From a virus: 21,304 nt of DNA. Where the stretch lies: positions 1 through 21,304 of the IMG/VR virus record IMGVR_UViG_3300035698_002109. The stretch is one strand, 5' to 3'. How positions within the stretch are numbered: the stretch's first letter is position 1; the number at the start of each line of letters is the position of its first letter. Shown here in pieces: positions 1 to 21,304 of this stretch. Below the pieces are notes generated by a model, which was not told the origin of the DNA, ran no database searches, and was given only the letters and a program-made list of their open reading frames with translations. Position numbers and translations under genes: made by a program.

Positions 1-410
1 ACGCGAATCTTACGTGCCCGAATGTCAACGATCTGCGAATCGTCTTCCAGTGCAACCGCTTGCAGTGCGTCACACAGGGGTTTCGTCAGGTTGTCGATGT
101 CGGGCCGCTTATCCATAAAGGACCATCCCAAATCTCGTTGTAGTTGCTTATCTGACTGTCGCCAGGGGAAGCAGTACAACACAGTGAGGCGTATTCTACC
201 CGATATGCTATCTGATGTCAAGGAGGCCCGCAACAATTTGGCTAGATCGGCGAGGTACTTCCGCTTCTTGGGCGAGGTAAAGGACCGCCCGTTGCCAAAT
301 CGCGTACTCTGCTTGGACTGCGGAACAAGCTCCGCATACGCATACACGGCCTTGTCGGGCGAAGCGTAACTGTCCCAGTCGTCTAGCATTGCGCGTAATA
401 GGGGTGTCAT
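1..410 (-). CDS. rusA: RusA-family Holliday junction resolvase (3' end outside window)
   Basis: This gene encodes a RusA-type endonuclease, which cuts four-way DNA junctions by paired nicks. The visible 136 residues contain the family's core: KRPDIDN at 101-107, with acidic residues D104 and D106, followed by LTKPLCDAL, then an EDD triplet at 122-124. These match the two acidic clusters that bind metal in RusA. About the expected length is present, but the C-terminus continues past the left edge, so the gene is partial. The ATG at 410-408 overlaps the stop of the upstream nuclease gene in an ATGA junction, with a GGGAAG ribosome site just before it. It is the last visible gene of a recombination block (RecA, two nucleases, resolvase). 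The likely role is resolving branched replication or recombination intermediates before packaging. The family call is firm; activity is inferred. Confidence 0.92.
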   Translation of the reverse strand, partial: MTPLLRAMLDDWDSYASPDKAVYAYAELVPQSKQSTRFGNGRSFTSPKKRKYLADLAKLLRASLTSDSISGRIRLTVLYCFPWRQSDKQLQRDLGWSFMDKRPDIDNLTKPLCDALQAVALEDDSQIVDIRARKIR

Positions 411-1399
411 GGTGCTTCCCACTTAGAGAGGTCTAACCACTTTCGATTGGGCTGGGCCGCGCTCTGCTCGTCTACCCATGCCTCGAAGTCCATGTCGTCC
501 CAACAAGGGGTCTTGAACACACACTTCTTAGCTCGTGATACATTCTGGCTCGTGCAGGGCATGCCCGACTCGGGGAGGGTGCGGTCGCGGATCGCCTCCC
601 AGATGATGCGGGCCTTGCGGACAGTCTCTTTCCACCAGCCCTCGTCGTAGTCGTACTTGACCGTGTGTATCTTGAACTGGTCCCTGTCGGCGAGCATGAA
701 CATCGTCGAATCGTAGCCAGTCATGTGCTGGTAGATGACTGCCTGCATCTTGTAATAGTCTGGGGTGTCGTCTGCTGTCTTCCACTTAGCCTTACCGTCA
801 AGGCTTAAGGACTTGAGTTCGAGGTGCATCAGCTTGCCGGGTGCAATCGAGTGCAGTTCCTTCAAGGCTTGCGGGAGGTCTTTCCTCACCAAGTTAAGGT
901 TCTCCTCCAGCCACCTGAAGCGATCAATGGATATGATGCCGTCGTGATGCCCCGTAAGCCGCAGAGCATCGTCCTTCAGCGAGTCCTCTGCAAAGGTCCA
1001 CACAGGCTCGGTGGCTTGTTCCTGCATCTCGTGCAGAGTCAGCTTAGGGTCTGGATGAAAACACGGTCCCCGCGTTTCCAGCGCCTCATTGTCAAACCAC
1101 TTCCCATACAGGATACCCAGCGGCCCTAGCACACAGTTCTGCATGTAGCTGTGCCACCATGTCCCGCAGCCCATACGCATGCGGGCAGAGCCATCGAACT
1201 TCTTAGATGGGATGGGCTTCCAGTAATTCAGTACGAACTCTCTTGGGCAGGTGAAGTACATGCCGCTGGCCCGCAACCAATCGGTCTGTAGGCTCTGCGG
1301 GCCTTGGCCATTAGCAAAGGCGTTGAAGACCTTGCCCATGTTATTGAACGGACCCGGTGGTACGGCGTTCCAGTCATCTAGTGTATCGAGTATGCTCAT
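407..1399 (-). CDS. Cas4/AddB-like PD-(D/E)XK exonuclease with predicted Fe-S cluster
   Basis: This is a 330-residue RecB-family nuclease. The motifs appear in the expected order: a lone Cys (C51, in FTCPREF), GTWWH with H83, TGHHDG with D153, LELKS with E194 and K196, and QAVIY with Q219 and Y223. A C-terminal trio, C282, C293 and C299, follows. One N-terminal Cys plus three C-terminal Cys around a RecB-type core is the arrangement that holds a 4Fe-4S cluster in Cas4 and AddB. The family degrades or trims DNA ends; in a phage this suggests end processing for recombination. I chose the ATG at 1399-1397 (MSILDTL) because it forms an ATGA overlap with the upstream nuclease. An open frame continues further upstream but lies inside that neighbour. 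There is no CRISPR array or other cas gene, so an adaptation role is not supported. Confidence 0.85.
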   Translation of the reverse strand: MSILDTLDDWNAVPPGPFNNMGKVFNAFANGQGPQSLQTDWLRASGMYFTCPREFVLNYWKPIPSKKFDGSARMRMGCGTWWHSYMQNCVLGPLGILYGKWFDNEALETRGPCFHPDPKLTLHEMQEQATEPVWTFAEDSLKDDALRLTGHHDGIISIDRFRWLEENLNLVRKDLPQALKELHSIAPGKLMHLELKSLSLDGKAKWKTADDTPDYYKMQAVIYQHMTGYDSTMFMLADRDQFKIHTVKYDYDEGWWKETVRKARIIWEAIRDRTLPESGMPCTSQNVSRAKKCVFKTPCWDDMDFEAWVDEQSAAQPNRKWLDLSKWEAP

Positions 1400-1779
1400 A
1401 GGTCTTCGTCTTGCCCGGCATCGAGCATCCTTTTGAATACGGTGAGGGGAATCAGTGCCCACGTTTGTTCCACGGCCTTCATGTTCTCCCATGTCAGCAC
1501 CAGCCCAGGCTCCCGCGATTCTCCCCAAGCCTCGCGGGTGATCTTCATAACGTCTTTGCGGGAGATACACAGCATGTCGCTGACAGTCTGCTTGCTGTCA
1601 AGGATGAAGTGATCTAGCTTAACATCCCCCTTGTGCCCGACAACGGCGCCAGACGCGGGCTGCCTGTGACCCCCGAGATCATCAGCGATCTTCTGCTCCT
1701 GCTTGCTGGTCTTACCCTTCTTCGACTCGGGCTTGCCCATCTGCCCGCCACGGGGTAGCTTGGGGTCGTGGTCAAACAT
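1396..1779 (-). CDS. small PD-(D/E)XK nuclease, Holliday-resolvase-like
   Basis: This 127-residue protein has the signature of small phage nucleases of the PD-(D/E)XK fold: a basic N-terminus (residues 15-30), then PASGA at 41-45, GDV at 51-53 and ILDSKQT at 59-65. D52 with D61-x-K63 would form the metal site, with Asp in place of the more usual Glu. The spacing and the PASGA/GDV signature resemble archaeal-Hjc-like resolvases, but the exact substrate is inferred. I chose the ATG at 1779-1777, which overlaps the recA stop by 8 bases and has GGAG upstream. MGKPESKK at residue 14 is a possible later start. Its stop overlaps the next gene's ATG. It lies between recA and the Cas4-like nuclease, so recombination or repair is its likely job. 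Confidence 0.75.
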   Translation of the reverse strand: MFDHDPKLPRGGQMGKPESKKGKTSKQEQKIADDLGGHRQPASGAVVGHKGDVKLDHFILDSKQTVSDMLCISRKDVMKITREAWGESREPGLVLTWENMKAVEQTWALIPLTVFKRMLDAGQDEDL

Positions 1780-2851
1780 CGACTCCACACTCCGCTTTGA
1801 CGATCTTTGCCCATAGCTTTCGTGCCTTGTCAACGTCTTCCCGCAGCATGGCCCGCAGGTCATCTTCCACCCGCGCTCGGAAGTCCCCGAAGCCAACGCC
1901 GCCCTCGCGGGTGATGATGCCATACTGCTTACCCTTCTTCACCATCGTAGTCTCGTTGAAGATATGGCCCGCCATGATGCCGTCGATGTCCTTGAGGGCC
2001 ATCTTACACTCGTAGGTCAAGTGGGGGACGTATGTCTTGTTCTTCTTCGTCACACCCGCAAGGTCTACAAAGGCCGTCAACTTCTCGTTGTCATCGAGAT
2101 ACTTGATGGCCTTGGTCCACACGATGACACTCGATGCGAATAACTGCCCGCGTCCGCCAGGCATCACGCGGGAGTCACCCCACATCACGCCGATCTTCTC
2201 ACGAAGCTGATTCAGACAGATAAGTGCGGGGGGCTTAACGCCGGTGTTGGCCACACGGTTCATGGCAGACGGCCACTTGCGGAAGGCCTTGTTCAACAGA
2301 ATAGCGTTCCCACCCATCCTCGCCTGCTCTGCCGAGTCCTGAATCTCCGTGCTGGAGGTCATTGCGGCCAATGAGTCCACTACAATTACATCGAAGGCAC
2401 CCGACTCCAGAGCAGCACTCACAACATCGACGGTCTGCTCGGCATAGTCGGGACGGATATGGGCGTGTAGATCGAAGTCGTAGCCATTCTTAGCCGCCCA
2501 CGCTTTGTCGAAAGCCCCCTCTACGTCTACGAACAGCGCCGTGCAGGGCGTGAAGTCGCCACACTTGCACCCTGTGCGATGGCAGCGGCATGTCTTGCAG
2601 TGATCGGACAGGGCTGCAATTGTCTTCAACATGATGAGGGTCTTGCCGGTACTCTCCTCGCCCGCAACTGTGGAGATGGCGCCGAAGGGCCACCCGCCAC
2701 CGAGCACGAGGTCGAGTGCTAAGATGCCGCTGCTGAACCTGTCTCGCTGGGTAGCGGCTAATGTGTTGCCCCTGCCCGCGAGGTCGGTCTTGTACTGCTT
2801 GTTTACCTCATCAACGAAGGCGTTGATCTTGTCTTGAGCGTCGTTAGTCAT
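1772..2851 (-). CDS. recA: RecA recombinase with cysteine-rich insertion
   Basis: This is a 359-residue RecA-type strand-exchange ATPase. Visible motifs are Walker A GEESTGKT (64-71), VDVEGAFD with the catalytic Glu E111, Walker B VIVVDS (155-160) and the L2 region NQLREKIGVMWG (214-225), followed by a GG pair as in bacterial RecA. That L2 match makes it RecA proper rather than a DnaB or RadA relative. Between Walker A and the catalytic Glu is a short cysteine-rich stretch, with C85, C88, C90, C95, C97 and C103 plus H84 and H91. Cellular RecA has no such stretch there, and it is probably a metal site. The start ATG at 2851-2849 shares one base with the upstream stop (TGATG). It would pair strands for recombination-dependent replication, with the nearby helicase, nucleases and resolvases. 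Confidence 0.93.
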   Translation of the reverse strand: MTNDAQDKINAFVDEVNKQYKTDLAGRGNTLAATQRDRFSSGILALDLVLGGGWPFGAISTVAGEESTGKTLIMLKTIAALSDHCKTCRCHRTGCKCGDFTPCTALFVDVEGAFDKAWAAKNGYDFDLHAHIRPDYAEQTVDVVSAALESGAFDVIVVDSLAAMTSSTEIQDSAEQARMGGNAILLNKAFRKWPSAMNRVANTGVKPPALICLNQLREKIGVMWGDSRVMPGGRGQLFASSVIVWTKAIKYLDDNEKLTAFVDLAGVTKKNKTYVPHLTYECKMALKDIDGIMAGHIFNETTMVKKGKQYGIITREGGVGFGDFRARVEDDLRAMLREDVDKARKLWAKIVKAECGVDV

Positions 2852-3174
2852 CAGCTTCCCTTCTTCTTGGCACGATACTCCTTGATCTTCGTTACCTCAA
2901 CCGACAGCTTCTCGTTGACGAACTCCTTAGCCGTAACAAGGGCTTCGTCGATCTCCTCAACGTAGGCGGGCAGGGTGCAGGTAACACCTACCTTCACACT
3001 CTCGTAGCTACCCATGTTGAGGGTCATCTGCTGTGTGTAGGACACCCGCGCCGTATCGGTGTGAAACACCCCCACGTCGATAGGAGTGGCGTCGTCGGTT
3101 TCCTTCGTGACAACCTTGCCCTTCGTGTAGGTCTGGTTCACGGTAATGGTGCCTGGCTCTTGGTTGCTGTTCAT
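2851..3174 (-). CDS. conserved-looking phage protein of unknown function
   Basis: I do not recognise a named family for this 107-residue protein. It has a polar N-terminus, then a central stretch, MGSYESVKVGVTCTLPAY (54-71), that reads like a beta hairpin. After this comes a charged helical C-terminus (about 72-107) ending in a lysine cluster. I recall phage hypothetical proteins with a similar 'YESVKVGV...LP...EIDEA' layout, but I cannot verify this. An AAGGA ribosome site precedes the ATG. The gene is directly upstream of recA, with a one-base TGATG overlap, so the two are translated together and a recombination or replication accessory role is plausible. Confidence 0.7.
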   Translation of the reverse strand: MNSNQEPGTITVNQTYTKGKVVTKETDDATPIDVGVFHTDTARVSYTQQMTLNMGSYESVKVGVTCTLPAYVEEIDEALVTAKEFVNEKLSVEVTKIKEYRAKKKGS

Positions 3175-3177
3175 GTC

Positions 3178-3525
3178 TTATCCTTTTACACGGACTTCTG
3201 CATCGGGGTGTTTCTTACACGCATCAGAGTATTCCCGTAAGAATGCTCTGAAGTTATCGAAGTTGCTTCCCCCGCAATCGGGATCGATCTCGTACCACAG
3301 GAATCTATCGGGGTCATGGTCCATAGTGGCGACCATGCGATCAAGGCGGTAACTCAGTGCCGATGCCTGCCTGATACCAAGTTTTGTCGGATGCCAGATG
3401 CACTCGTACACGCCACCTTCGCATGCCATCATGTTGTTAGCATGCGATGTCCTGCCCCAATAGACTATATCTCCCTGCCGAGTGTTGGGGTCCACCTCGT
3501 CCACCAAGTATACGTGCAGAAACAT
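3178..3525 (-). CDS. hypothetical phage protein
   Basis: This 115-residue protein matches no family I know. It has a hydrophobic start (MFLHVYLVDEV) and a central region with two Cys and several His and Trp (residues 30-45, ACEGGVYECIWHPTKLG). The C-terminus is charged. It has no signal peptide or membrane segment. An AAGGA site sits 7 bases before the ATG. It lies 3 bases after the helicase stop and 3 bases before the next gene, so it belongs to the same transcript. Length, ribosome site and tight packing support a real gene; the function is open. Confidence 0.7.
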   Translation of the reverse strand: MFLHVYLVDEVDPNTRQGDIVYWGRTSHANNMMACEGGVYECIWHPTKLGIRQASALSYRLDRMVATMDHDPDRFLWYEIDPDCGGSNFDNFRAFLREYSDACKKHPDAEVRVKG

Positions 3526-3528
3526 GGT

Positions 3529-4848
3529 CTATCCTTGCGAGGTGAATCCGAAACTCTCGTACTGTGCTAGTCGTTTGGCTGCTTGTGCCCTGTTCCACGG
3601 GGTATCAAACACGATGTCGATTACCAGCGGGGTCTTCTTGCCCGCAACCGGTCTACGTATTCTACCAACGACCTGCTCAATGTCAACCCTCGGTGTGGCG
3701 AGGAACAACGTGTCGATGCGGGGGATATCTGTGCCCTCCGACATCATGCCGTATGTGGCGATGATGATGTCCTTAGCCGCCTCTTCGTCTCGCTGCTTGT
3801 CCGTCAACCCGCCAACGTACAGCCCGACAGAATGGTCGCTACTGCACTCAATTGCACTCTTGATCGCCTCGCACTGGGCCTTTCTATCAGAGCATGCCAG
3901 TGGGCATCGGCCCGCGTCTGCCGCAGCCACAGCTTTCTTGGCGAGCCAATCGTTCAAACTCGGTGTCTCGGACATCGTGGTGATGTACTTCGATCTGTTG
4001 AGGCTACCTGCCCAGTAGAAGGACGAGTCCCTGAGTGATGTCTCCCACGACACTTGCCGGAAGTTGCCCGACAAAGCGCGGGTATGGCACTTGGACTCTA
4101 CCCGACCGATGTACCACTCCCACAGCATCTCCAGCCCGTCCTTGCGTCGCCAAGTGGCGGACACGCCTAGCCGGAAGTGGGCATGGAAGGCGCCCATCGA
4201 GTAGGCGAACGTCTCTGCCGAATACCTGTGCCCCTCGTCGAAGATGACGATGCCGAAGGACTTGAAGAAGTCGTCTGGCAGTGTATCTCGCTGACTGTAG
4301 ACCGTCTGGGCCATTGCCGTGACAACGTGCTTGTCCTTGTAGGCTAGCTGTTTCTGCTGCACGTGGCCCGTTTGGCAGGTAGGCCAGAACGCCGAGGCTG
4401 TCCTCTGCCACTGCGATGCCAGGTCGCCTTTGTGTACCAGTACAAGTGCTGTAGTGCCTAGTCTGGAAGCGATGTCTAGTGCCATCAGGGTCTTGCCCGC
4501 ACCCGGCATGGCTTCCAGAAGGGCTCCCGACACGCCGCCTTGCCTGTACTGGAACCGATCGTATATCTCCAGCACCGATTCTTCTTGCCCATCGCGATAG
4601 TTGCCGCACGTTGGGAAGCATATCGGAGGCCAGTCTAGGTGTGGGTGAGTGGTGTGCAATCGAGCATCTATGTCTAGGTTATCCGCCGCCCAGTTGCGGG
4701 GGACTCCCACACAATCATCCCGCACCTCTGCTAAACAGAAGGTCTTGATAGACCCATCGTACTGCACCGAGTCTACTGTGAGCTTCTTTACAAGCTCCTC
4801 TCGACTCGCTACTGCGGGGGATACCCATAATAGGCGATCTTCAATCAT
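3529..4848 (-). CDS. SF2 DNA helicase (UvsW/RecG-like role)
   Basis: This 439-residue superfamily 2 ATPase has Walker A AMPGAGKT (113-120), a DEGH box (204-207, a DEAH variant), motif III SAT (230-232), TEGTDIP-like motif V (SEGTDIP, 370-376) and motif VI QVVGRIRR (392-399). All are in the usual two-RecA-domain order. About 100 residues precede the first motif and may be a DNA-contact domain. Phage relatives such as T4 UvsW unwind branched DNA and RNA-DNA hybrids; that role here is inferred from fold and from recA nearby. The ATG overlaps the polymerase stop in ATGA. The ribosome site is poor (AAAAGG abutting the ATG), so translation probably depends on coupling to the polymerase gene. Confidence 0.88.
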   Translation of the reverse strand: MIEDRLLWVSPAVASREELVKKLTVDSVQYDGSIKTFCLAEVRDDCVGVPRNWAADNLDIDARLHTTHPHLDWPPICFPTCGNYRDGQEESVLEIYDRFQYRQGGVSGALLEAMPGAGKTLMALDIASRLGTTALVLVHKGDLASQWQRTASAFWPTCQTGHVQQKQLAYKDKHVVTAMAQTVYSQRDTLPDDFFKSFGIVIFDEGHRYSAETFAYSMGAFHAHFRLGVSATWRRKDGLEMLWEWYIGRVESKCHTRALSGNFRQVSWETSLRDSSFYWAGSLNRSKYITTMSETPSLNDWLAKKAVAAADAGRCPLACSDRKAQCEAIKSAIECSSDHSVGLYVGGLTDKQRDEEAAKDIIIATYGMMSEGTDIPRIDTLFLATPRVDIEQVVGRIRRPVAGKKTPLVIDIVFDTPWNRAQAAKRLAQYESFGFTSQG

Positions 4849-6707
4849 CCTTTTACTTCGCCCCAGTTGTCACATATTACGATGTCTGTTCTCACAGGCA
4901 CCCGCAACTGGACGGCGTGTTCCATGTGGTAACGCACCACTTCGGTTGCTTCTTCTACGTAGTCCTCATCACACTCAAACACAAGCTCGTCGTGGATGAT
5001 ATTCGTTGGTAACACTTTGTTCAACCATGTCCCGCGTTCAATGAAGTCCTGTCGAATCTTCACAGCGGATAGCTGAATGAAGTCGCAGGCCGCAGACTGC
5101 GGGGGGAAGTTGATGAACTGATTGATCGAGTGCTTCCAGTTCTTCTGCACTTCGTGCTTAGGGATACGTCGTTTGCGGCCAAAGATGGTCTTCGTGACCG
5201 GCGACATCTCCATCTGGTGTTCCATACGAACATGGAACGCATGAACCCCTTCGTACATAGCCATGTACTGATCGCTAGCCTCTTGCCACTCGGCCCGCGT
5301 CAGATCAGGGTACTGATAGTGCATCATCCCCGCAGTGGCGTAGTAGATCAGGGCGAAGTTCGCTACCTTGCCGTCCTGACGAGAGTGTAGTGCCGGGATA
5401 CCCTCGTAGGTCTGCGTGTGGATGTCCTTACCGTGCCAGAAGCCCTCGCCCTTACCTGATAGAATCTTCTCGTTCTCTGCCGCCCCGCAATTGGGACACT
5501 CGTGCAGGATCGTCAGGGCGTCACCAGTCCGCCCGCACTTCGTACACGTCCACTGCACATAGGCCTGAAGGAACAGGGGGTCTTGCGAGATATGAGCCAT
5601 CAGCCGCAATTCGATCTGCGAGAGGTCGGCTACGATGAGCTTCTTACCGGGGCCTGCCCGCACACAGCGGCGGATGTTCAGGCCCTTGAACAACTCGTGT
5701 AGGAATGCGGGGATGTTCTGGAAATTGGGCTTCTCGCTCCGCATACGACCAGTCGTGCTGACCAGCCAGAATGTCGGGTGAATACGCTTGTGGGGGTCGG
5801 CATCAGCCCGCTCCACGAGGGGCTTGAGATAAGTACCCACCATCTTCTCGGCGGTACGATACCACACGATCTTCTCGCACACCGGGTATCGCTTAGACAG
5901 CGTAGCCATGGCTTTCTTGTCAACGCTATACCGCTTCTTACTCTTAGTGAGGTCGATCCTGGCCGTCGAATAGCCTAGCTCGTCGAACAGCCTCTTGGCA
6001 AGCTGGTCCCCGCTGGCTAAGTTGATGTCGCCAATCTGCGCCAGTACCTCCCCTTTCAGCCGCACGGCTAGGGCCTCGAAGGATGTCCGAAGATCGTTAG
6101 CGCAGTCGATGTCCCACAGGATGCCCACGAGTTCCATTTCCGCCACGAAGATTGACGATGGCATCAGTATCTTACGGAACAGGTTGTACGAGCCCTCTTC
6201 GATAAGCTGTGGCTTGATGTCCTGCCATAGCTTGTACTCGTAATAGGCGTCGTCCGTGGTGTAGTGTATGAACCGCTCACTGTCGGGACCATCCACGGAC
6301 TCTTCCATGAAATTGCCCATCTCATACCCATAGGTATCTTTGACCACGCACTTGAGACTTAGCTTGTTGGGCTTACGGTTCTCGTTCAGTAGGTTCACAC
6401 CTACCATTGGATCACATAGTTGCTTAGGGTCTTCCCGCACTCCGAGGGCCTTGAGGCACTTCAGGTCATACTTGCCATTGTATGCAACTGCGTCTACCCC
6501 TTCGAGTGCAAACAGTTGCACAATCGCGGGCTGCCACACAGCACGATCCCTAACGAAGTGCCGCTCCTCCCCGATAGCAAAGCTCACACCCCACAGCGAG
6601 AAGTCGGTGTGATTGAACTGCGTATTGGGGTCGTGCTCAACATCGAAGCTGAACGCCCCCGCAGCCTGCGCCTTGGCAACGAACTCGGCGGTGTTAAACG
6701 GGGTCAT
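4845..6707 (-). CDS. polA: family A DNA polymerase with 3'-5' exonuclease and zinc-ribbon insertion
   Basis: This is a 620-residue replicative-type polymerase of the DNA polymerase I family, without a 5'-3' exonuclease domain. The proofreading site is intact: D22-x-E24, N77...D81 and Y149-x3-D153. Polymerase motifs are TTGR (318-321), motif A ADLSQIELR with D361, motif B from R443 through K447, F451 and Y455, and motif C HDE (572-574). Two oddities stand out. A four-Cys zinc ribbon (C388, C391, C404, C407) sits between motifs A and B. Motif B reads NFALIYY rather than the usual NFGLIYG, so both glycines are replaced. The ATG has GAAGG upstream and overlaps the preceding gene by 14 bases. It would copy the phage genome with the primase, helicase and SSB encoded upstream. 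Confidence 0.95.
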   Translation of the reverse strand: MTPFNTAEFVAKAQAAGAFSFDVEHDPNTQFNHTDFSLWGVSFAIGEERHFVRDRAVWQPAIVQLFALEGVDAVAYNGKYDLKCLKALGVREDPKQLCDPMVGVNLLNENRKPNKLSLKCVVKDTYGYEMGNFMEESVDGPDSERFIHYTTDDAYYEYKLWQDIKPQLIEEGSYNLFRKILMPSSIFVAEMELVGILWDIDCANDLRTSFEALAVRLKGEVLAQIGDINLASGDQLAKRLFDELGYSTARIDLTKSKKRYSVDKKAMATLSKRYPVCEKIVWYRTAEKMVGTYLKPLVERADADPHKRIHPTFWLVSTTGRMRSEKPNFQNIPAFLHELFKGLNIRRCVRAGPGKKLIVADLSQIELRLMAHISQDPLFLQAYVQWTCTKCGRTGDALTILHECPNCGAAENEKILSGKGEGFWHGKDIHTQTYEGIPALHSRQDGKVANFALIYYATAGMMHYQYPDLTRAEWQEASDQYMAMYEGVHAFHVRMEHQMEMSPVTKTIFGRKRRIPKHEVQKNWKHSINQFINFPPQSAACDFIQLSAVKIRQDFIERGTWLNKVLPTNIIHDELVFECDEDYVEEATEVVRYHMEHAVQLRVPVRTDIVICDNWGEVKG

Positions 6708-6978
6708 TTGATGCCTTCAACGCAATCTGAACACACGCCTCATCGGATATGTGAGCGTCGGGGATATGCGCCCACGCCACCACTCCAGTGTGTTTATGTG
6801 TCATAGGCTCGTCGGTGAACTGTCGCCGCCAAACACCATCCCTATAATAGCCCACCTCCATCATCCGGTGGCGGCTATCTAGGTACAATCCCGTAATACG
6901 GAGGACCAATACGAGAGCGTGGGGAATAGGAAGCTCGTCGTCTACTGCGATCCATCGGAACTGTTGATAGTCCAGCAT
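6694..6978 (-). CDS. DUF551-like small phage protein
   Basis: This 94-residue protein follows the pattern of short phage DUF551-type proteins: FRWIAVDDELP near the N-terminus, a VLVL strand, GYYRDGVW in the middle (43-50) and VVAWAHIPD near the C-terminus (66-74), giving the spaced W...LP...W...P signature. The family's function is not known to me. The ATG overlaps the upstream stop by one base (TGATG) and has AGGAGA 7 bases before it. The 3' end runs 14 bases into the polymerase gene, which suggests coupled translation. The family match is by eye and moderately sure. Confidence 0.72.
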   Translation of the reverse strand: MLDYQQFRWIAVDDELPIPHALVLVLRITGLYLDSRHRMMEVGYYRDGVWRRQFTDEPMTHKHTGVVAWAHIPDAHISDEACVQIALKASNDPV

Positions 6979-7295
6979 CAGTTCTCTCCTAATTCAATGT
7001 TGTCGTCATCTAGCACATCTACATTGGCAACAGGCGCCCTGTTCCGCAGTCTGTTCTGTGCGTCTAACTCTTGTGCCCGCAGCAGGACATCCAGCACGTC
7101 GTAGGCCTTACGTACACGGACATTCAGATCGTCTGCCATTGAGATGAGGAACACCCGGTGCTGTCGTTGCAGCAGCGAGTCGCTCGTAACGCTCAGCGGT
7201 AGTCTGTTAAAGGCCGCGATCAAGAAGAGGTCGTCGGCATCCGTGAAGTCGTGCAGGCTGTCAGAAGCAAAGTTGATCTGTACAAGTGCGGGCAT
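6978..7295 (-). CDS. small acidic-tailed hypothetical protein
   Basis: The gene encodes 105 residues with no family I recognise. The body looks helical (residues 40-80, with VRVRKAYDVLDVLLRAQEL), and the end is strongly acidic (DVLDDDNIELGEN). I took the ATG at 7295-7293 because AAGGAA lies 6 bases before it. A GTG 21 bases further upstream lacks a site and falls inside the hairpin stem. It is the first gene after the terminator-like hairpin at 7313-7342, so its expression may differ from the SSB gene before it. A replication accessory or DNA-mimic role is conceivable from the acidic tail, but nothing proves it. Confidence 0.68.
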   Translation of the reverse strand: MPALVQINFASDSLHDFTDADDLFLIAAFNRLPLSVTSDSLLQRQHRVFLISMADDLNVRVRKAYDVLDVLLRAQELDAQNRLRNRAPVANVDVLDDDNIELGEN

Positions 7296-7312
7296 CGGTC
7301 GTTCCTTAAAAT

Positions 7313-7342
7313 CCACGCAGGGGGCCGAAGCCCCCCACGAGG
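7313..7342 (-). terminator. UUCG-capped hairpin with U run: probable intrinsic terminator or attenuator
   Basis: On the transcript strand the core is GGGGGC-UUCG-GCCCCC. The stem extends outward through two wobble pairs, two G-C pairs, one U-U mismatch and two more G-C pairs, 13 stem positions in all. AUUUU follows immediately, at 7312-7308. This is the layout of a rho-independent terminator, although the U run is short. It lies in the only intergenic gap of more than 20 bases (7296-7387), between the SSB gene and the next small gene. With no clear promoter after it, partial termination is more likely than a full stop. Confidence 0.65.
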
Positions 7343-7387
7343 TGTGCTTAACTAAGCCGCCGCTGGTTCTTGGGCCAACTTAGTGAG

Positions 7388-8062: not shown

Positions 8063-8071
8063 AATCGTGTA

Positions 8072-8077
8072 CTCCTT
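8072..8077 (-). promoter_or_regulatory. Shine-Dalgarno AAGGAG deciding the SSB start
   Basis: AAGGAG on the minus strand lies 9 bases before the ATG at 8062. It overlaps the end of the primase gene and sits just inside the alternative upstream ATG at 8080. It is one of the strongest ribosome sites in the window and supports the downstream start, in keeping with the large amount of SSB a phage needs. Confidence 0.7.
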
Positions 8078-9060: not shown

Positions 9061-9061
9061 G

Positions 9062-10963: not shown

Positions 10964-10980
10964 CGCATCGTCTCCGTGTA

Positions 10981-11583: not shown

Positions 11584-11600
11584 TCGTTTCCTCACGTTAT

Positions 11601-12464: not shown

Positions 12465-12474
12465 GTGGTCCTCG

Positions 12475-13899: not shown

Positions 13900-15611
13900 C
13901 GGAACCCCGCAGGTACTTGGTCTGGACTTTGGCTGTGCCAGATTTGGAAGGGAAGCATTGGAATCGACGCGCCGGACGATACGATGTTCTCAATGTCTAC
14001 TCGTCTGTGCATCCCGCGTTCTCCGAGCATCGCGTTGAACTTCTGGGTGTCAACAGGAGTGTCACTAAACGTGGGCATGTAGCCGTGCTTAATAATCATC
14101 CACGGGGATCGTGCCAAGGCGTCAACCAGTTTGTCCCAATCCTCCTCGGGTACCTGCGGGAGACTGTCCCATAGAATTGTAACCGCCGAGAGTGGGGTGG
14201 GGTCTGTGTATGACCCCACTACATGTGTCCACTTATTGCTATGAGGTGTCGCAAAAGTAGCTGTGTGGCCACACGTCTCGTATCCGGTCACCCGCAACCC
14301 GCTATAGGTCAGGACATCCACGGGCTCACCGAGGAACGTGCCGAAGACCTTAACTGATGCGTGGGGATCAACTCGCTTGCACACATTGGCGATTAGCACT
14401 CGTGCATTGTGCTCGGTACGTTGGTGGAACCAGCCGTAGCGATACTTCGTATATCGAGGTACGTAGGACTCTCTGTTGATTACGGAGTCCCACTCGTCGA
14501 TCATCTTCTGTGGCTGGAACTTGTCGGCCTGGGCCACACCATCTTGTCGAAGCTGCTCGTAGGCCTTCTTGTCCCGCAACAGTTCAACCGTACGCTCGAC
14601 GGCTCCGACCACGCTGGCATCGCCAAACATGGCATCGAATCGCAACGTGTGCCCGGCAATCGGCACAAGGCTCTTGGACGCTTGCCCCAGCACTTCTGGG
14701 AAGGCGGTATGATTTGGAGCGATGTTTGGGCACCCGCAAGCCATGGCCTCTAAGCTTGGAATGCCCAGTCCTTCGCCCTCGCTCATCGAGACTCGGAAGT
14801 CGGACATCTGGTAAAGTTCGGCAATATCCTCGTTGGGGATGTACTTCTGCCAGTCGAAGTCGGTGAATACCACGTGTTGGGCGACTCCGAAGATGGCTGC
14901 GGTCTTCTCTAAGTCGTGCCCAAAGGGAGGCCCGCCAACCTTGGGCGTGTTTGCAATCAGTTGCACTGGCCAGCCCGCATCGTGCAGGCGCCTCACGTAG
15001 TCGAAGACCTTATCCCATCGCTTACGCTGATGGTTACGGTCCACCGCCACGATCACGGTCTTCGAGGACACGTCCGCGTTGAGTTTGTGCGACCACTTCT
15101 CCCGCAACGCGATCTGCTGCCCCTCAGATACGGGGTTGTAGATCGCGGGGTCGATAGAGTGATAAATCGTGCCGTAGCCACCAATTCCGGCATCTGCCCA
15201 CAGCTTACGGCTGTATTCAGACACATGAACGATATTCTCAGAGGGGAACTCGGCAAACATCTCCTCGACACCGATGGGCAGGCTCACACCCTCCCACGGC
15301 AACCACAGATACATAGGACAGTTCTGGGGGATAGCCCGACTCTGCATCAACCCACCGAGGGCGTGCATGTGGCTGAATGCGATGCAGACATCGGGTTGTA
15401 CACGGGTAATGATGGAGTCGATACCGGGAGCATCCATCTCGCTAACGAACCACTCGGTCAGCCCGACAACATCATCTGCGTCGGGTGGCCTAATCGCGCC
15501 TAAGACGTGTACATCGTGGCCTTTAGCAATCAGGCCGTGGGCCAGAATTTTACTCTGCGTCCCGAACCCGCTGGGGGTCTGGAGGCTATCCGATATGAGG
15601 GCTACTTTCAT
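13896..15611 (-). CDS. GT4-family glycosyltransferase with an extra C-terminal domain
   Basis: The first 380 of 571 residues form a GT-B glycosyltransferase. GFGTQSKILAHGL (15-27) and GHDVHVL (31-37) build the acceptor half. VDRNHQRKRWD (190-200) begins the donor half, and EGEGLGIPSLEAMACGCP (278-295) holds the E-x7-E pair (E280, E288) that binds the nucleotide sugar. After about residue 395 a second segment begins, with RVLIANV, a WTHVVGSYTD strand (461-470) and a helix ending in WMIIKHGYM (504-512). It looks like a Rossmann-type, possibly degenerate methyltransferase half. The start overlaps the GT9 gene by 26 bases, with GGAG upstream. It would transfer a sugar in the same pathway as its neighbours; donor and acceptor are unknown. 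Confidence 0.83.
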   Translation of the reverse strand: MKVALISDSLQTPSGFGTQSKILAHGLIAKGHDVHVLGAIRPPDADDVVGLTEWFVSEMDAPGIDSIITRVQPDVCIAFSHMHALGGLMQSRAIPQNCPMYLWLPWEGVSLPIGVEEMFAEFPSENIVHVSEYSRKLWADAGIGGYGTIYHSIDPAIYNPVSEGQQIALREKWSHKLNADVSSKTVIVAVDRNHQRKRWDKVFDYVRRLHDAGWPVQLIANTPKVGGPPFGHDLEKTAAIFGVAQHVVFTDFDWQKYIPNEDIAELYQMSDFRVSMSEGEGLGIPSLEAMACGCPNIAPNHTAFPEVLGQASKSLVPIAGHTLRFDAMFGDASVVGAVERTVELLRDKKAYEQLRQDGVAQADKFQPQKMIDEWDSVINRESYVPRYTKYRYGWFHQRTEHNARVLIANVCKRVDPHASVKVFGTFLGEPVDVLTYSGLRVTGYETCGHTATFATPHSNKWTHVVGSYTDPTPLSAVTILWDSLPQVPEEDWDKLVDALARSPWMIIKHGYMPTFSDTPVDTQKFNAMLGERGMHRRVDIENIVSSGASIPMLPFQIWHSQSPDQVPAGFR

Positions 15612-16335
15612 CTAACAACGGCTCCAAAGCGAAGTTAAGGTGTCTCGGTCTCATCTTCCAGAATCTCTGCGTCTTCATCACACCCGCGTCCACGTAAGGT
15701 CGCAGGAATATCTTGTCTCGGCCCCCATCGGGGTAGTCGCCTATCAGGGTGTATGTGGGAATCTTGTTGATGGCTGCCATTGTCTTCCCGCAACTGTCCA
15801 CTCCGATGAACGCTTTGCAGGCCATGAGGGCGCCCAAGTTCTCCCACATGGTCCCGTCTAGTATAACGTGTGGGGCGTCAATTTGCAACAGGGCAGCCTC
15901 GTCACGGGAACACACGATCACGCAGCGGTACTTTTCGTGCAATCGTTGCACGGCTGCTGTCAAGATGCCGTTGGGGATCATCTTCTGTGGTCGCCCGGCG
16001 TTTGCCTGGTTCACGTTAGCGTAAGGCGATCCGAACGGCTGAATCGCCACGAACGGCTTGTCCGTGACGTACTTCTTAACGGCCCACTGCGGGTCCAGAC
16101 CTTCGGGCAGTTGAATCTCGGGCCACACCACGTGAGGAAGCGTATCCCCAGCATACTGCGGGACTGTACGGGGACTGTCGTAGTACACGAACTCGCGTAC
16201 CTTGACGCCCGCTTCTTCCATGAATTGCGGGAGACCCTTGCAGTGTGAATGTACAACGACCTCGCCGACAGCCTGCGCCCCTCCCATCATCAAGAGGGCG
16301 TCACCGATGCCGCCGACTATTCTAGGACATATCAT
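15586..16335 (-). CDS. GT9-like (heptosyltransferase-type) glycosyltransferase
   Basis: This 249-residue protein fits family GT9. VGGIGDALLMMGGAQAV (7-23) matches the 'GD-LL-P-L' start, AIQPFGS (97-103) the start of the donor domain, and FIGVDSCGKTMAAINKIPTY (176-195) the 'GxDSG..H.A.A...P' signature. It is shorter than cellular heptosyltransferases (about 320-350), with a trimmed N-terminal half. In GT9, the residue after DSG-x is usually His in GPMH; here it is GKTM, so donor use may differ. The start overlaps the methyltransferase gene by 14 bases and has no good ribosome site, so coupling is needed. It probably works with the GT4 enzyme on one glycan. Confidence 0.8.
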   Translation of the reverse strand: MICPRIVGGIGDALLMMGGAQAVGEVVVHSHCKGLPQFMEEAGVKVREFVYYDSPRTVPQYAGDTLPHVVWPEIQLPEGLDPQWAVKKYVTDKPFVAIQPFGSPYANVNQANAGRPQKMIPNGILTAAVQRLHEKYRCVIVCSRDEAALLQIDAPHVILDGTMWENLGALMACKAFIGVDSCGKTMAAINKIPTYTLIGDYPDGGRDKIFLRPYVDAGVMKTQRFWKMRPRHLNFALEPLLDESSPHIG

Positions 16336-16858
16336 AAGCTGGCCCGCGTGCGAGTAGGGTCTGCTTTGCTACGAACACTGCTTTCCAGCCATCCTCGACA
16401 GCTTGGGGGACCGCCAACTTGCCTTTGCCCCCGTCAGTATGATCTGTGTCGTCAATGAGGATTAGGCTGGTTGCCCGCATCTTGGGCCACGCCAGTTTGT
16501 ATGCCGCAAGATGCTGCTCCGCGCTGTCTGGAACAGTGTCGTAGTCCCATGCGTCGAGATACAGCAGGTCGATCGTGCCATCGAAGGCCCGCAGGAACTT
16601 CTGGCCGTCCATGGTCACGGTGATGACGTTATCGTACTCGGCAGTCTCTTCCCGCGTTAGTGTGGTTGCCTTGGGGTTAATGTCCACGGTGTACACTACA
16701 CTAGCGTGCTGTGCCCATGCAACGGTTGAATACCCATCGCCCGCGTAGTTGTTACGCTGTCGTATGCTACCCAGCTCGACCACCACGCCACCACCATTGC
16801 TGTGAAAGTGCTCCAACGTCTCGTTGATGGTAGGTTGTCGTCCGTATCGCTTAGACAT
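16322..16858 (-). CDS. SAM-dependent methyltransferase-like protein
   Basis: This 178-residue protein looks like the class I methyltransferase type found in glycan clusters. VVVELGSIRQRN (25-36) is motif I, YTVDINP (56-62) carries the SAM-ribose acid, LLYLDAWDYD (98-107) is the post-core strand, and SLILIDDTDH (131-140) with GGKGKLAVP (143-151) follows. The spacing 'GS.R...GDGYST' and 'IDDT' fits sugar or small-molecule O-methyltransferases better than DNA methylases. The catalytic specificity is unknown. I chose the ATG at 16858-16856, since GAGGT lies 6 bases before it. An ATG 15 bases upstream has a weaker site. It overlaps the previous gene by 8 bases. Confidence 0.75.
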   Translation of the reverse strand: MSKRYGRQPTINETLEHFHSNGGGVVVELGSIRQRNNYAGDGYSTVAWAQHASVVYTVDINPKATTLTREETAEYDNVITVTMDGQKFLRAFDGTIDLLYLDAWDYDTVPDSAEQHLAAYKLAWPKMRATSLILIDDTDHTDGGKGKLAVPQAVEDGWKAVFVAKQTLLARGPAYDMS

Positions 16859-17435
16859 GCACGTACCTCGCATATAGGTGGTTCTCGCCCGACACGTTCA
16901 CGGTGTCCACGTCGTTGTCTAGCTTCCAGTGCTTCTCGAAGATCGAGAACACGTTCACGTCCTTTGTCGGGCCGTCTGCATACCACCTGCCAAACAAGCA
17001 TACGTAGGGAGTCATATCGAGGAGGTCTATGGCGTACTCTTCGATCTCGTCGGCCTCAATATGCTGAAACACCGTCCACGCGAATACAAAATCGAAGCGG
17101 CACATCTTGAGCATAAGCCACTCCGATGCCAAGCGAATGCGGTGCATGTCTTCGATGTAGTCGTCGGCCCGACTCAGCATAAACGGAGAGTCGTATCCGG
17201 TGATACGCCAACCGGGGTCATGGTCACGTAGGGCTACTGTGTTGCGGCCTACCCCGCAACCGAAGTCCAATACCGCACGCAGCCCATCGAACATGGTCAT
17301 CTCTGACTCGATGAACTCCGTCTCCGGCACGAGAGCATCGTAGCTGTGATGCTTGGCCACGATCTGCTCGGCGAGAGCTTCGTCGGACATCTGCTTAGCC
17401 GCGTGAATGTATCTCTTGTACCTGAAGTGGCTCAT
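16851..17435 (-). CDS. class I SAM-dependent methyltransferase
   Basis: This 194-residue protein has a classic SAM site: AVLDFGCGVGRNT (54-66, motif I), ITGYDSPFML (78-87, with D82 for the ribose) and FDFVFAWTVFQHIEADEI (114-131, motif IV with a following helix). The fold is that of small-molecule or sugar methyltransferases (Methyltransf_11/25 type). No DNA-methylase catalytic motif (DPPY or PCQ) is seen. The ATG makes an ATGA overlap with the zinc-ribbon gene's stop, with a purine-rich GGGGAGGT just upstream. An in-frame ATG far upstream lies inside that neighbour and is rejected. With the second methyltransferase and two glycosyltransferases it forms the modification block. Confidence 0.85.
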   Translation of the reverse strand: MSHFRYKRYIHAAKQMSDEALAEQIVAKHHSYDALVPETEFIESEMTMFDGLRAVLDFGCGVGRNTVALRDHDPGWRITGYDSPFMLSRADDYIEDMHRIRLASEWLMLKMCRFDFVFAWTVFQHIEADEIEEYAIDLLDMTPYVCLFGRWYADGPTKDVNVFSIFEKHWKLDNDVDTVNVSGENHLYARYVHV

Positions 17436-17764
17436 ACACCTCCCCTTTTCCATGAACTGCCACCGGAATGCTTGCACCCGTACTCGGCTGTCTCTTCGTA
17501 CAAGACCAAGTTGACTAACCAGCCCTTGTATCGCGTATCGACACTTGCGGGGGCGTTTAACCTGCACCCGCAAATCCCGCAGCGGAAGGTTTTGTTGTCG
17601 GTGCGTACCTTGTCGCAGGCCAGACAAATCTTCATCCTCTCCCGCATACGGTCGTGGGAGACCTTCTTCCCGCACACGACCGCGCTAGCTACAGACATCA
17701 AGTTCTTTAGCGTCACGTCAGGCAGTTCTTCTTTAGTGATTTCCGGTATCTCAGGGGCACTCAT
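17432..17764 (-). CDS. zinc-ribbon phage protein
   Basis: This 110-residue protein carries C47, C50, C62 and C65 (MKICLACDKV ... FRCGICGC) in a zinc-ribbon pattern, with further Cys at 67 and 97. The layout is a leading helix, CxxC, a short loop, CxxCGC, and a Lys followed by a late Cys. It recalls short zinc-ribbon proteins encoded near phage tail-fibre genes, though I cannot confirm the family. The start is ATG 17764-17762 (MSAPEIP), overlapping the FN3 gene by 14 bases, with AAGGCG upstream. The longer open frame upstream lies inside the FN3 gene in another frame. It may help assembly or act with the methyltransferases; its role is unknown. Confidence 0.72.
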   Translation of the reverse strand: MSAPEIPEITKEELPDVTLKNLMSVASAVVCGKKVSHDRMRERMKICLACDKVRTDNKTFRCGICGCRLNAPASVDTRYKGWLVNLVLYEETAEYGCKHSGGSSWKRGGV

Positions 17765-19493
17765 ATAGACTGATCGCCTTGTATTCGTGTAAGTAACTAC
17801 CTTCGTACATGTCCACCAGCAGCCCGCAGTGATTGTAGTGATACTGCCAATAGGAAGTGGTCCACGACAGGAACAGGTTTGTGCCTGTAATGTATAGGTC
17901 TTGATCGTACGACGTGGTGATTGTACCAGACCCCTCGGACTCGGTGTCCACGTACAGAACTGAAGGGGAGCCCGCGACGGTTTTAAGGCAGCTACCGAGG
18001 ATAATAAAGGGGTCAATGGAGTAGCCATTGGACTCCGTATACAACCTACTGAGCACCCCGCAATCATTGTATCCGTAGACAATCGCATGGTCATACGTGT
18101 AGAGGTTCACTTCGGTATCGAACACGCCATACGTACTGATGAAGCTCCGCAGAGGTGGCCCCAATGAGTCATAGCCGGAGGGGGCGCTGTTAAGGTTGAT
18201 GATGGGGGCATACCCGCCACCGGGAATCTCGTACTGTAGCCACTCAAGACACCCGCTCGAATAGATAGGCCCGAGTGAGTTGGTCTCCGCGGCATAATCG
18301 ACCTGCACGTAATCCAGCAGCACACCCTGAGTCGAGCATCCGTTGTCATCAAATGAGTAGGTCGATTTCCAGTGGTCCATTTCCCAGTACATGACCAGCG
18401 AGGTCAGTAGGGTATCTGAGGGGGCTGCGGCGAGGGTGCCATCGAAGTCCCAGTAGATGTTGCGCAACGACTCGCCGATTGGCTTGGTCTGGGCCGACTC
18501 CCAGTCTATATAGTTGATGACCGGCCACTCCTGCGTGCCATAGTAGCCCTCGCAGTATTCGTAGCCCGACACGAAGTAGCCGTACTGATCGTCGTAAAAG
18601 TTGTAGTAGTGGTACTCGGGATCGACGTATACCTTCTTGGATACCATCGTTGACAGAGCGTACTGCGAGGGTACCTTGGGGTCGGGTAATGTGTAAGGGT
18701 CAATCGGGATGCCCGGCGTAGCGTAGCACGGGTTGAGGTCTTGTATGTATGTGGAGTTGCCTACGCTGTCTTCGCAGCTAATGAAGATCGTCTGGCTTAC
18801 CTCGCACGTATCTACATACAGGCCGTCTGTTGCCGTGATACTAGCCGTCAGCACAAGTGTGGGGTCGCTGGACCCGCAAGCCTCTGTGTAGAAGGATATG
18901 CCTGTCAACGAGCGGCTGTCTATCAAGATGATGCCGTCGTAGCCCACGTCCCACTGCACATTCTGAATGGTGTAGCCCGCTGGGATAGCATAGTTCAGGG
19001 AGGCTTCTATCAGATCGCCGCAATAGGATGAGTCGGGCACCGATATAGATGCGTCCAACGTGGCGCAGATATCCGTGTTATCGTCTGAATCGCCCCCACC
19101 TTCCCGACACGATGACGTGAACTGTCGTGACTTGGATAGGGGGCTAGCCCCACCCGTGGAACTGTATGCCATCACCCGCCAATAGTAAGTCGCACCGTAG
19201 TTCAGTTCGGTGCCAACCGTAAGGGTCAGGGTGACTGTGGGTGCGGTGACCTCGGAGGCCCGCAACGAGGGTCCGTCAAAGTCGCCACTACGGGAATACT
19301 GTACCACGTAAAAATCGGCCCCGGCAACCGCAGTCCACACGAGGTCAATCGTGCCCCCGTTACGCTTGCATAACGCGGCCTGATCTGATGGGGAGGAAAG
19401 CTCTGGGGCTGCCAGCGCAATATCATTGAAGACCGGGGGATAGGTCGGGGAGTACGGGTATGCGTAGACGAGTTGATCGTCGTAAGTGCTCAT
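17751..19493 (-). CDS. fibronectin-III / Ig-like tail protein
   Basis: This 580-residue secreted-looking but signal-less virion protein has a fibronectin type III domain at about 28-127 (TIDLVWTAVAGADFYVVQYS ... YYWRVMAYSSTGGASPLS). A linker rich in Gly and Asp follows, then a second beta domain, Ig or PKD-like, at 143-240 with C143, C158, C206, C230 and C240. The rest is beta-rich. A striking tyrosine-dense patch lies at 291-323, with 10 Tyr in 28 residues. Such domains decorate phage tails and often bind host surfaces. It lies between the small tail protein and the modification block. The ribosome site (GGTGTAG) is weak but adjacent to the ATG. Adhesin or tail-fibre-like function is inferred. 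Confidence 0.8.
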   Translation of the reverse strand: MSTYDDQLVYAYPYSPTYPPVFNDIALAAPELSSPSDQAALCKRNGGTIDLVWTAVAGADFYVVQYSRSGDFDGPSLRASEVTAPTVTLTLTVGTELNYGATYYWRVMAYSSTGGASPLSKSRQFTSSCREGGGDSDDNTDICATLDASISVPDSSYCGDLIEASLNYAIPAGYTIQNVQWDVGYDGIILIDSRSLTGISFYTEACGSSDPTLVLTASITATDGLYVDTCEVSQTIFISCEDSVGNSTYIQDLNPCYATPGIPIDPYTLPDPKVPSQYALSTMVSKKVYVDPEYHYYNFYDDQYGYFVSGYEYCEGYYGTQEWPVINYIDWESAQTKPIGESLRNIYWDFDGTLAAAPSDTLLTSLVMYWEMDHWKSTYSFDDNGCSTQGVLLDYVQVDYAAETNSLGPIYSSGCLEWLQYEIPGGGYAPIINLNSAPSGYDSLGPPLRSFISTYGVFDTEVNLYTYDHAIVYGYNDCGVLSRLYTESNGYSIDPFIILGSCLKTVAGSPSVLYVDTESEGSGTITTSYDQDLYITGTNLFLSWTTSYWQYHYNHCGLLVDMYEGSYLHEYKAISLYECP

Positions 19494-19506
19494 CTACACC
19501 GCCTGA

Positions 19507-19872
19507 TTAAGAGGACCACGAAGTAACGGCTACGACCTGAAACGATCCGCTAAGGTCGAAGATTCTGCCGGTCACATCCGGGGCATCGAACACATGGAAC
19601 TTCACTGTGAGCACGTCGCCCCAATACCCGGTAAAGGGCATGTTCGGATTCGAGTCTTGATCGGCCTTACCGAGGAACCACTGCCACTCAGTCTCACAGC
19701 AGTTCCGACACTCCCATGCCAATAAGGAATCGCCATCGACAATCTCGGTCGCTGTCTGAATGACAACCGCATTAGTCGTTCGCTTGACGTTGAACCTTTT
19801 GGCAGGGGTAATCGGATTATAGCTGAATTGCTCTGGCAAGTCAACCCCGTCTAGAGTCGCTAGATATGCCAT
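19507..19872 (-). CDS. small tail protein
   Basis: This 121-residue protein is mostly beta strand, beginning MAYLATLDGVDLPEQF and ending FDLSGSFQVVAVTSWSS. It has a paired-Cys motif, ECRNCCETEWQWF (54-66). I do not know a named family, but the 'L.GV.LP' opening and position directly after the tape-measure gene fit a distal-tail or tail-tube-adjacent protein. AGGAG lies 9 bases before the ATG, inside the end of the tape-measure gene. Three bases separate the two genes, and 13 separate it from the FN3 gene. The tail assignment comes from context. Confidence 0.68.
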   Translation of the reverse strand: MAYLATLDGVDLPEQFSYNPITPAKRFNVKRTTNAVVIQTATEIVDGDSLLAWECRNCCETEWQWFLGKADQDSNPNMPFTGYWGDVLTVKFHVFDAPDVTGRIFDLSGSFQVVAVTSWSS

Positions 19873-19875
19873 GGG

Positions 19876-21304
19876 CTATACTCCTGTCCCGATTTTGCGC
19901 CTGCGGAAGTGCTGATCGACAATTCGCACGACCTCTTGCTCGTCAATCTTGCTGTTAACGGTCATCTCAAGCCTGCGGTTATCGTTCGTGTCGCCGCCCC
20001 GATTTTGGGCGGGGTTCACTTGGATACCTGCGACCGCTGCACTTGATTGCACGGACGCCATCTCCGCCACACCACCCGCCACGTTTGCGGGATCGAACCG
20101 GGCGATATCCCCTATCTCACGGTTGATAGCGTCCTTAGCCGACTTGATCGCCTGCACTGTCGAGGCTAGATACTGGTTCAAGGATGGGCTGGACTCGAAG
20201 TTTGGGCCGAAGGTCGCCCGCACCTTGGCCATGAGGGTCTTGACCTCGGCAGCCATCTTATTAAGAGCGTCTAAGAAGTTATCAGCAAAGGAGTTACCCG
20301 CCTTCGTCCCGACCTTGCCGACGTTACTCACGAACTGGTTCAGGGTGGGGAGAAGGGACGTGACCTTCGATATGGACGAGAACACGGCCTCGCCCACAGA
20401 CCTCATGCCAGACGACAAGGCGTCTGTTAAGGTCGTCGTCGTGGTCTGGACTTCCCTGACCTTGGTCTTAAGAGCATTGATGGCATCAGTTGTCGGGATA
20501 GCTCCCTCAGTGGCGGCGTCAGGCAACGTGAAGCCAGATTCTTCGGCAGCACCCTTCAGTCTGGCCAACTGAGTCTCAACTGCGGCCTTGAGTCGCTGGG
20601 CGCGGTTAAGGTCACCCGCCTCGATCGCCCGTTGCAGAGCTTGCCCGAGCTTGATGACGTTCTGTAGCTTGCGTTGTACCTCTGCCTGCAACTTCTTCTC
20701 GAAGCGTCGCAGAGCAATGTACTCGGCATAGGTATTGACCTGATCTCTCAGCACTTGGCTGATCTTCGACTGCCCGCTGACCTGCTCGCGGAACTCGCGA
20801 GTGGTCCTCTCCGAGATAGTCTCGCCCGACTCAAGCTGCTTGTTGACGCCCTTCAACTCGCTCTCTAGCCCGCTCAAGGCGCCCTTCTCACGTTCCAGTG
20901 CCGCAGCACGCCGTGCAAGCTCCCCGCTGTCAGCCCCGCGTTCGCGGGCAGAGTTCAGGGCTTCTTGCAGGGTCAGGGTCTTCTGCATCTGCCTGTTGAT
21001 ATCGCTCTGGATATCTTCCCTACGCTCTTGTAGAGAATTGATCTCCTGCTCTGTCAGCAGCCGCTTCTCGATCTCCTGGCGAACCTTGGCTTCGGACTTC
21101 GCCCGCTTCTTGGCATCGCGTTCGGCCTTCTCCTTTGCACGCTTAGCCTTCTTCTCTACAGACGCTTCGGCGAACTTGCGGTTCAGATCGAAGGTCGCTT
21201 CAAGGCGAGCTATTTCAGCCTGCTTCTCGGTCTCGATCTGTTTTTGCCGCGATGCAGACTGGTTCTCACCGAGCTTGGCGAGATCGTCGTAGTAATCAAC
21301 GGCG
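19876..21304 (-). CDS. tape-measure-like tail protein (5' end outside window)
   Basis: The open frame runs from the stop at 19876 past the right edge, giving about 476 visible codons of a longer protein. The ATG at 20988 is probably internal, since the frame stays open upstream to the window edge. The first part is a long charged coiled coil full of Lys, Glu, Ala and Arg (window 21304 to about 20650). It then turns to mixed helices with hydrophobic and small residues (SSGMRSVGEAVFSSI, NSFADNFLDALNKM), and ends in a basic tail, HFRRRKIGTGV. This matches tape-measure proteins, which set tail length and enter the tail tube, and small tail genes follow it. A coiled-coil tail-assembly protein of another kind is possible. 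Confidence 0.75.
   Translation of the reverse strand, partial: AVDYYDDLAKLGENQSASRQKQIETEKQAEIARLEATFDLNRKFAEASVEKKAKRAKEKAERDAKKRAKSEAKVRQEIEKRLLTEQEINSLQERREDIQSDINRQMQKTLTLQEALNSARERGADSGELARRAAALEREKGALSGLESELKGVNKQLESGETISERTTREFREQVSGQSKISQVLRDQVNTYAEYIALRRFEKKLQAEVQRKLQNVIKLGQALQRAIEAGDLNRAQRLKAAVETQLARLKGAAEESGFTLPDAATEGAIPTTDAINALKTKVREVQTTTTTLTDALSSGMRSVGEAVFSSISKVTSLLPTLNQFVSNVGKVGTKAGNSFADNFLDALNKMAAEVKTLMAKVRATFGPNFESSPSLNQYLASTVQAIKSAKDAINREIGDIARFDPANVAGGVAEMASVQSSAAVAGIQVNPAQNRGGDTNDNRRLEMTVNSKIDEQEVVRIVDQHFRRRKIGTGV

Follow-up and report, generated by a model that had tools for sequence, protein, structure and literature searches.

Introduction

Phage genomes saturated with a recognition word are already known. 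The known Chi words (GCTGGTGG, AGCGG, GAAGCGG, and GCGCGTG) are short, asymmetric, and G-rich, and to our knowledge Chi words have been established for just a handful of bacteria. Known DNA uptake words are 9–12 bp long, and the chromosome-orientation words KOPS and AIMS are defined by strong polarity. The density of Chi in E. coli is approximately 0.2/kb (PMC3784561). Chi is over-represented in E. coli phages that lack a RecBCD inhibitor, and this extends to phages with a recombinase of their own (PMC3784561).

The window analyzed here is the whole 21,304-base record of an unclassified bacterial virus, which was handled as a fragment. Like E. coli phages with Chi, it repeats a short and asymmetric G-rich word through its coding DNA, whatever the frame and in either orientation. 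It is also comparable to the Haemophilus phage HP1, whose genome is saturated with the uptake signal sequence (USS), although the USS is a longer word with more conserved positions that occurs less often. With KOPS and AIMS, it shares a short, repeated, G-rich word with uneven raw counts between the strands; however, the YGCGGG form of the window was equally enriched on either strand after correction for coding content.

Gene content of the window

All main genes lie on the minus strand, which is thus the coding strand. It encodes tail-like proteins, glycosyltransferase and methyltransferase-like genes, replication genes (DnaC, DnaB, primase, DNA polymerase, and helicase), and recombination genes (a RecA-type recombinase, a resolvase, and a RecE/Cas4-like exonuclease). 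The exonuclease, SF2 helicase, RecA-type recombinase, and resolvases adjoin one another. The genes relevant to this analysis are as follows:

422..1381, minus strand: RecE/Cas4-like PD-(D/E)XK exonuclease gene (PHROG matches with E 7e-11 to 3e-7)
1772..2851, minus strand: UvsX/RecA-type recombinase gene, which supplies the phage with a strand-exchange protein of its own (PHROG 97, E 3.5e-56)
3529..4848, minus strand: SF2-type DNA helicase gene (PHROG 16, E 2.8e-45)

A sequence search of the exonuclease against solved structures gave no match. DNA and protein searches among phages returned distant relatives at most, or none, and scans of viral sequences with the DnaB and SSB-like proteins returned zero. 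TTGCGGG was absent from the relatives sharing a similar RecA and polymerase, and among the relatives examined, no close relative of the phage showed the motif signal.

Over-representation of TTGCGGG

The original prediction had counted 21 coding-strand copies of TTGCGGG and 6 copies on the opposite strand. All 27 copies in the window were recovered in their places within 227-20091:

Minus strand, exact TTGCGGG (low coordinate of the 7-mer): 227, 1270, 2055, 2661, 3271, 3641, 4901, 5484, 9396, 9646, 10284, 14291, 14573, 14733, 15101, 15787, 17253, 17567, 18057, 18873, 19259
Plus strand, exact TTGCGGG (within 869..20091): 869, 1556, 4694, 16225, 17545, 20085

The dinucleotide shuffle gave a mean of 2.85 copies, with a maximum of 7 among 100 shuffles. 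When proteins and codon usage were held fixed in a synonymous-codon shuffle, 2.0 sense and 1.4 antisense copies were expected (z of 13.7 and 4.3), and TTGCGGG was the most over-represented 7-mer of all. A strict null, in which the codon-junction dinucleotides were fixed in addition, raised the sense expectation to 3.4 and left 1.3 for the antisense strand, and none of its 120 shuffles exceeded 8 and 4 copies, respectively. TTGCGGG also ranked first under Markov models of orders 1–3. It was not outstanding in the maximal-order word model because that model conditions on its own enriched, overlapping 6-mers.

The prediction had proposed two ways to overturn its claim. A codon-preserving shuffle with similar counts was not obtained (2.0 + 1.4 against 21 + 6), and unrelated heptamers with equal enrichment did not appear either: when GCGGG and GTCGGG were masked, the remaining words of the window showed no comparable enrichment.

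A degenerate motif family with two spacings

Substitution and extension analysis of TTGCGGG was used to define a motif family. In this family, CGGG is preceded either directly by TG or CG (YGCGGG) or by AG or TG with an intervening T (WGTCGGG). TTGCGGG is thus the tip of the degenerate family YGCGGG with its spacing variant WGTCGGG.

227..20940, both strands: motif family YGCGGG + WGTCGGG (143 sites, mean spacing 147 bp)

The family reaches a density of 6.7/kb in the window. YGCGGG occurred 72 times on the minus (sense) strand and 39 times on the plus (antisense) strand, where the codon null expects 16.2 and 12.9; the corresponding counts of WGTCGGG were 22 and 10, against 3.7 and 4.0. The flanks contributed little past approximately three bases, and no long conserved flanks were found around the motif.

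The heptamer had been described as occurring in every codon frame. This was borne out by the family, whose sense sites were distributed over the codon phases as 39/28/27, with an excess in all three phases on both the sense and the antisense strand. The observed-to-expected ratio (O/E) exceeded 2.5 in 18 of 25 gene segments. TTGCGGG, TGCGGG, and YGCGGG were above all 120 strict shuffles on both strands, and WGTCGGG only on the sense strand. The 6-mer TGCGGG was used at 47 of the 92 sense positions that the proteins permit (51%; approximately 10 expected) and at 25 of 78 antisense positions (32%; approximately 7 expected). Therefore, selection or drive acts on the DNA, largely irrespective of codon meaning.

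These results show a word family enriched at the DNA level, whatever the frame or protein, across most genes. The earlier claim of a DNA-level rather than a codon-level cause is well supported by all phases, both strands, two codon-preserving nulls, and most genes. It is accordingly very improbable that the enrichment arises from base composition, codon usage, or a preference for certain codon pairs. The CGG, GGG, and GCG codons are fairly common, and fixing the junction dinucleotides raised the YGCGGG sense expectation from 16.2 to 25.2. However, an artefact of codon usage vanishes under codon-preserving shuffles and keeps to one frame, and the excess did neither; moreover, CGG and GGG were rarer outside the motif. 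Equal enrichment of the antisense strand makes an mRNA-level cause unlikely in our judgement.

Strand bias and gaps

The 21:6 bias of TTGCGGG was borderline relative to the coding expectation (p = 0.05). Under the strict null, YGCGGG was enriched 2.86-fold on the sense strand and 2.87-fold on the antisense strand. The whole family showed a modest sense excess under the simpler codon null (94:49, p = 0.005), which under the strict null was carried by WGTCGGG, whose antisense count lay inside the shuffle range. The strand bias, which the prediction had taken as a clue, is therefore present as a count but largely reflects coding composition.

The two gaps in the exact heptamer, at 5.5–9.4 and 10.3–14.3 kb, are real (randomly placed sites would show two gaps of this kind with p = 0.0016). 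However, of the 77 positions at which the proteins permit the heptamer, they hold just 7 and 6, and sites of the wider family occur within them at 5.6 and 5.8/kb, compared to 6.7/kb overall. The gaps, also taken as a clue in the prediction, are thus mostly a by-product of where the proteins permit TTGCGGG.

A packaging or orientation element, which had also been suggested, fits poorly with approximately 143 sites on both strands and little true polarity. KOPS and AIMS would require strong polarity beyond coding effects, and YGCGGG, at 2.86-fold and 2.87-fold, showed none. Ideas of a packaging site, a promoter, or a primase site were dropped because of the number and distribution of the sites.

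Positive controls and survey of other sequences

The same scan was applied to 445 sequences with a minimum length of 5 kb; most were viral contigs, and genome loci and phage HP1 were included. This sample was not random, as many contigs were chosen because TTGCGGG was present. Among those of the 445 sequences whose top word lies outside repeats, the window ranked second; only L286, a GC-rich contig, scored higher. Of 488 sequences, the window alone had both parts of the family clearly enriched, and none of the contigs found by scans for clustered words had the whole family. L105 and L170, the runners-up, were rejected since the WGTCGGG excess was missing, and the weak candidate L438 was rejected since its enriched word, CGGGCRA, differs.

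The scan blindly gave the E. coli Chi core as the top 7-mer in contigs L099, L137, and L197, the first two of which match E. coli phages across short stretches. In these three contigs, full Chi GCTGGTGG had an O/E of 5.4–9.2 at 1.1–1.7/kb; TTGCGGG in the window had an O/E of 7.1 at 1.30/kb. Full Chi was used at 82–86% of the protein-permitted sense positions and 43–60% of the antisense positions, and its sub-word CTGGTG at 32–44% and 22–31%. The use of the 6-mer core in the window (51%/32%) equals that of the Chi sub-words. The window is therefore similar to the Chi controls (O/E 5–9, more than 1/kb) in its use of permitted positions, whereas its family is looser, with two spacings, and denser, at 6.7/kb, than Chi in any control.

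In HP1 (L264), the scan likewise recovered the uptake word AAGTGCGGT blindly, with 15 copies in the tested genes (O/E 28), a density of approximately 0.5/kb, and use at 85% of the sense and 44% of the antisense permitted positions. The Chi contigs and HP1 look statistically alike; thus, Chi and uptake signals can both yield the pattern of the window. Chi was little enriched in HK97 and in the initial 50 kb of T5, so Chi saturation is not universal in phages. In the Lactococcus phage TP901-1, its Chi word was not enriched.

Search for the host

Approximately 430 distinct genomes, reached only via RecA-like matches, were surveyed. By title, they belonged to Actinomycetota, Acidobacteriota (Chloracidobacterium), Armatimonadota, Patescibacteria-type lineages, Omnitrophota, and one Euryarchaeota; most Pseudomonadota, Bacillota, Cyanobacteriota, and Bacteroidota lay outside the survey. 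TTGCGGG never exceeded approximately 0.35/kb in these genomes, compared to 1.27/kb in the window. Density alone is unable to exclude a host because Chi stands at only approximately 0.2/kb in E. coli and yet at more than 1/kb in the control contigs. Therefore, we applied the codon null to coding stretches (7–40 kb) of 19 higher-ranking genomes, and the motif family was found in none of them. A host-genome signature, as originally suggested, was thus not found among the approximately 430 genomes, and the true host probably lies outside that set. In the literature searched, TTGCGGG was not found as a reported signal.

Candidate explanations

The motif is a real, strong, frame-independent DNA signal, and it is best read as Chi-like. 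By analogy with the phage controls, we give a probability of roughly 45% that it is a Chi-like recombination or protection word of the phage's host. A Chi-like site was the best among the functions proposed in the original prediction, and the word shows what is typical of Chi: it is short, asymmetric, and over-represented beyond codon and composition effects. The reading is further favored because the fragment encodes a RecA-type recombinase, and Chi is over-represented in E. coli phages with recombinases that lack a RecBCD inhibitor (PMC3784561). We infer that a nuclease reads the signal, that this reading drives the selection, and that the host owns the signal. TTGCGGG is identical to none of the known Chi words, which themselves were unremarkable in the window (GCTGGTGG, O/E 1.07; AGCGG, 1.14; GAAGCGG, 1.81 with z 1.8; GCGCGTG, 0). 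Since Chi words are lineage-specific, this mismatch leaves room for a new one.

The main rival reading is that a naturally competent host uses the word as a DNA uptake signal, which also built up in its phage. HP1 demonstrates that phages can be saturated with uptake words, and GTGCGG resembles TTGCGG. The word of the window, however, has 6–7 bp, is degenerate, has weak flanks, and its family occurs at 6.7/kb against approximately 0.5/kb in HP1; AAGTGCGGT itself is absent. Word length, density, looseness, and missing flanks thus favor the Chi-like reading, and we regard an uptake signal as improbable. Somewhat less improbable, but still unlikely, is selection for the word by another sequence-specific DNA-binding or DNA-modifying factor of the host, such as a nucleoid protein, a chromosome-orientation system, or a self-marking system. 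A DNA-level signal on two strands suits many DNA-binding factors, and the avoidance of CCWGG, GCGC, CCGG, and palindromes indicates that the genome responds to host DNA enzymes. Restriction, however, selects against words and not for them, and the polarity that orientation words need was mostly gone after coding correction.

The signal might instead belong to the phage, with recognition by the exonuclease, helicase, and RecA-type recombinase that it encodes, or by its replication or packaging proteins, and with no host counterpart. The exonuclease, SF2 helicase, RecA-type recombinase, and resolvases are encoded together, and the same family was seen in no surveyed host or other phage. On the other hand, we found no precedent for a phage-owned Chi, the relatives with a similar RecA and polymerase do not have TTGCGGG, and the absence from hosts is a weak argument because most phyla were outside the reach of the survey. 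We therefore hold such ownership to be quite improbable. The same low weight is given to its specific form, a phage-encoded Chi system in which a dense recombination signal with a degenerate two-spacing motif would be read by the phage's own exonuclease, helicase, and recombinase; the RecE/Cas4-like exonuclease (422..1381) would be the candidate reader.

Proposed role and significance

If the Chi-like reading is right, the phage genome would bear a near-saturating, short, asymmetric, G-rich signal (YGCGGG, at its best TTGCGGG, with the variant WGTCGGG) that works like Chi. A host helicase-nuclease of the RecBCD, AddAB, or AdnAB type would enter at a DNA end and read the signal, degradation would stop, and the strand would then be passed to a RecA-type recombinase. 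With the signal in both orientations, both ends of linear DNA would be protected and concatemer formation would be helped.

In a phage under near-saturating pressure for such a word, the word becomes readable from raw sequence; without other guidance, a simple synonymous-shuffle scan picked out E. coli Chi and the uptake signal of Haemophilus. On the Chi-like reading, the window yields the recombination word of the phage's host and hints at the way in which an unclassified phage withstands nucleases that degrade DNA ends, or turns them to its own use. The same scan could list candidate host signals across viral collections.

Other word biases

Several words were avoided in the window (1-21304). 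CCWGG was strongly avoided (15 against 62 expected), GCGC occurred 45 times against 101 expected, and CCGG 52 times against 94. Many 6-bp palindromes were also strongly avoided, several of them at 0. These avoidances suggest pressure by host restriction enzymes. GGAGG was scarce within genes (13 against 38.9 expected), as if ribosome-binding-like sites inside genes were avoided.

In the surveyed genome G067 (L525 and L545; Actinomycetota group), ACCAGG/CCAGG was enriched (82 against 30 expected, z 9.4) and YGCGGG was depleted (4 against 15). Strongly enriched non-repetitive words in other viral contigs were GCGAGCC in L286, CACGGGC in L206, AAAGCTT in L387, and AGCCGCA in L074. The viral contig L438 (1-9196) has no tandem repeats and contained CGGGC 92 times against 32 expected, with the strands about equal. 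It is saturated with its G-rich word CGGGCRA, which may be a further host signal of this type.
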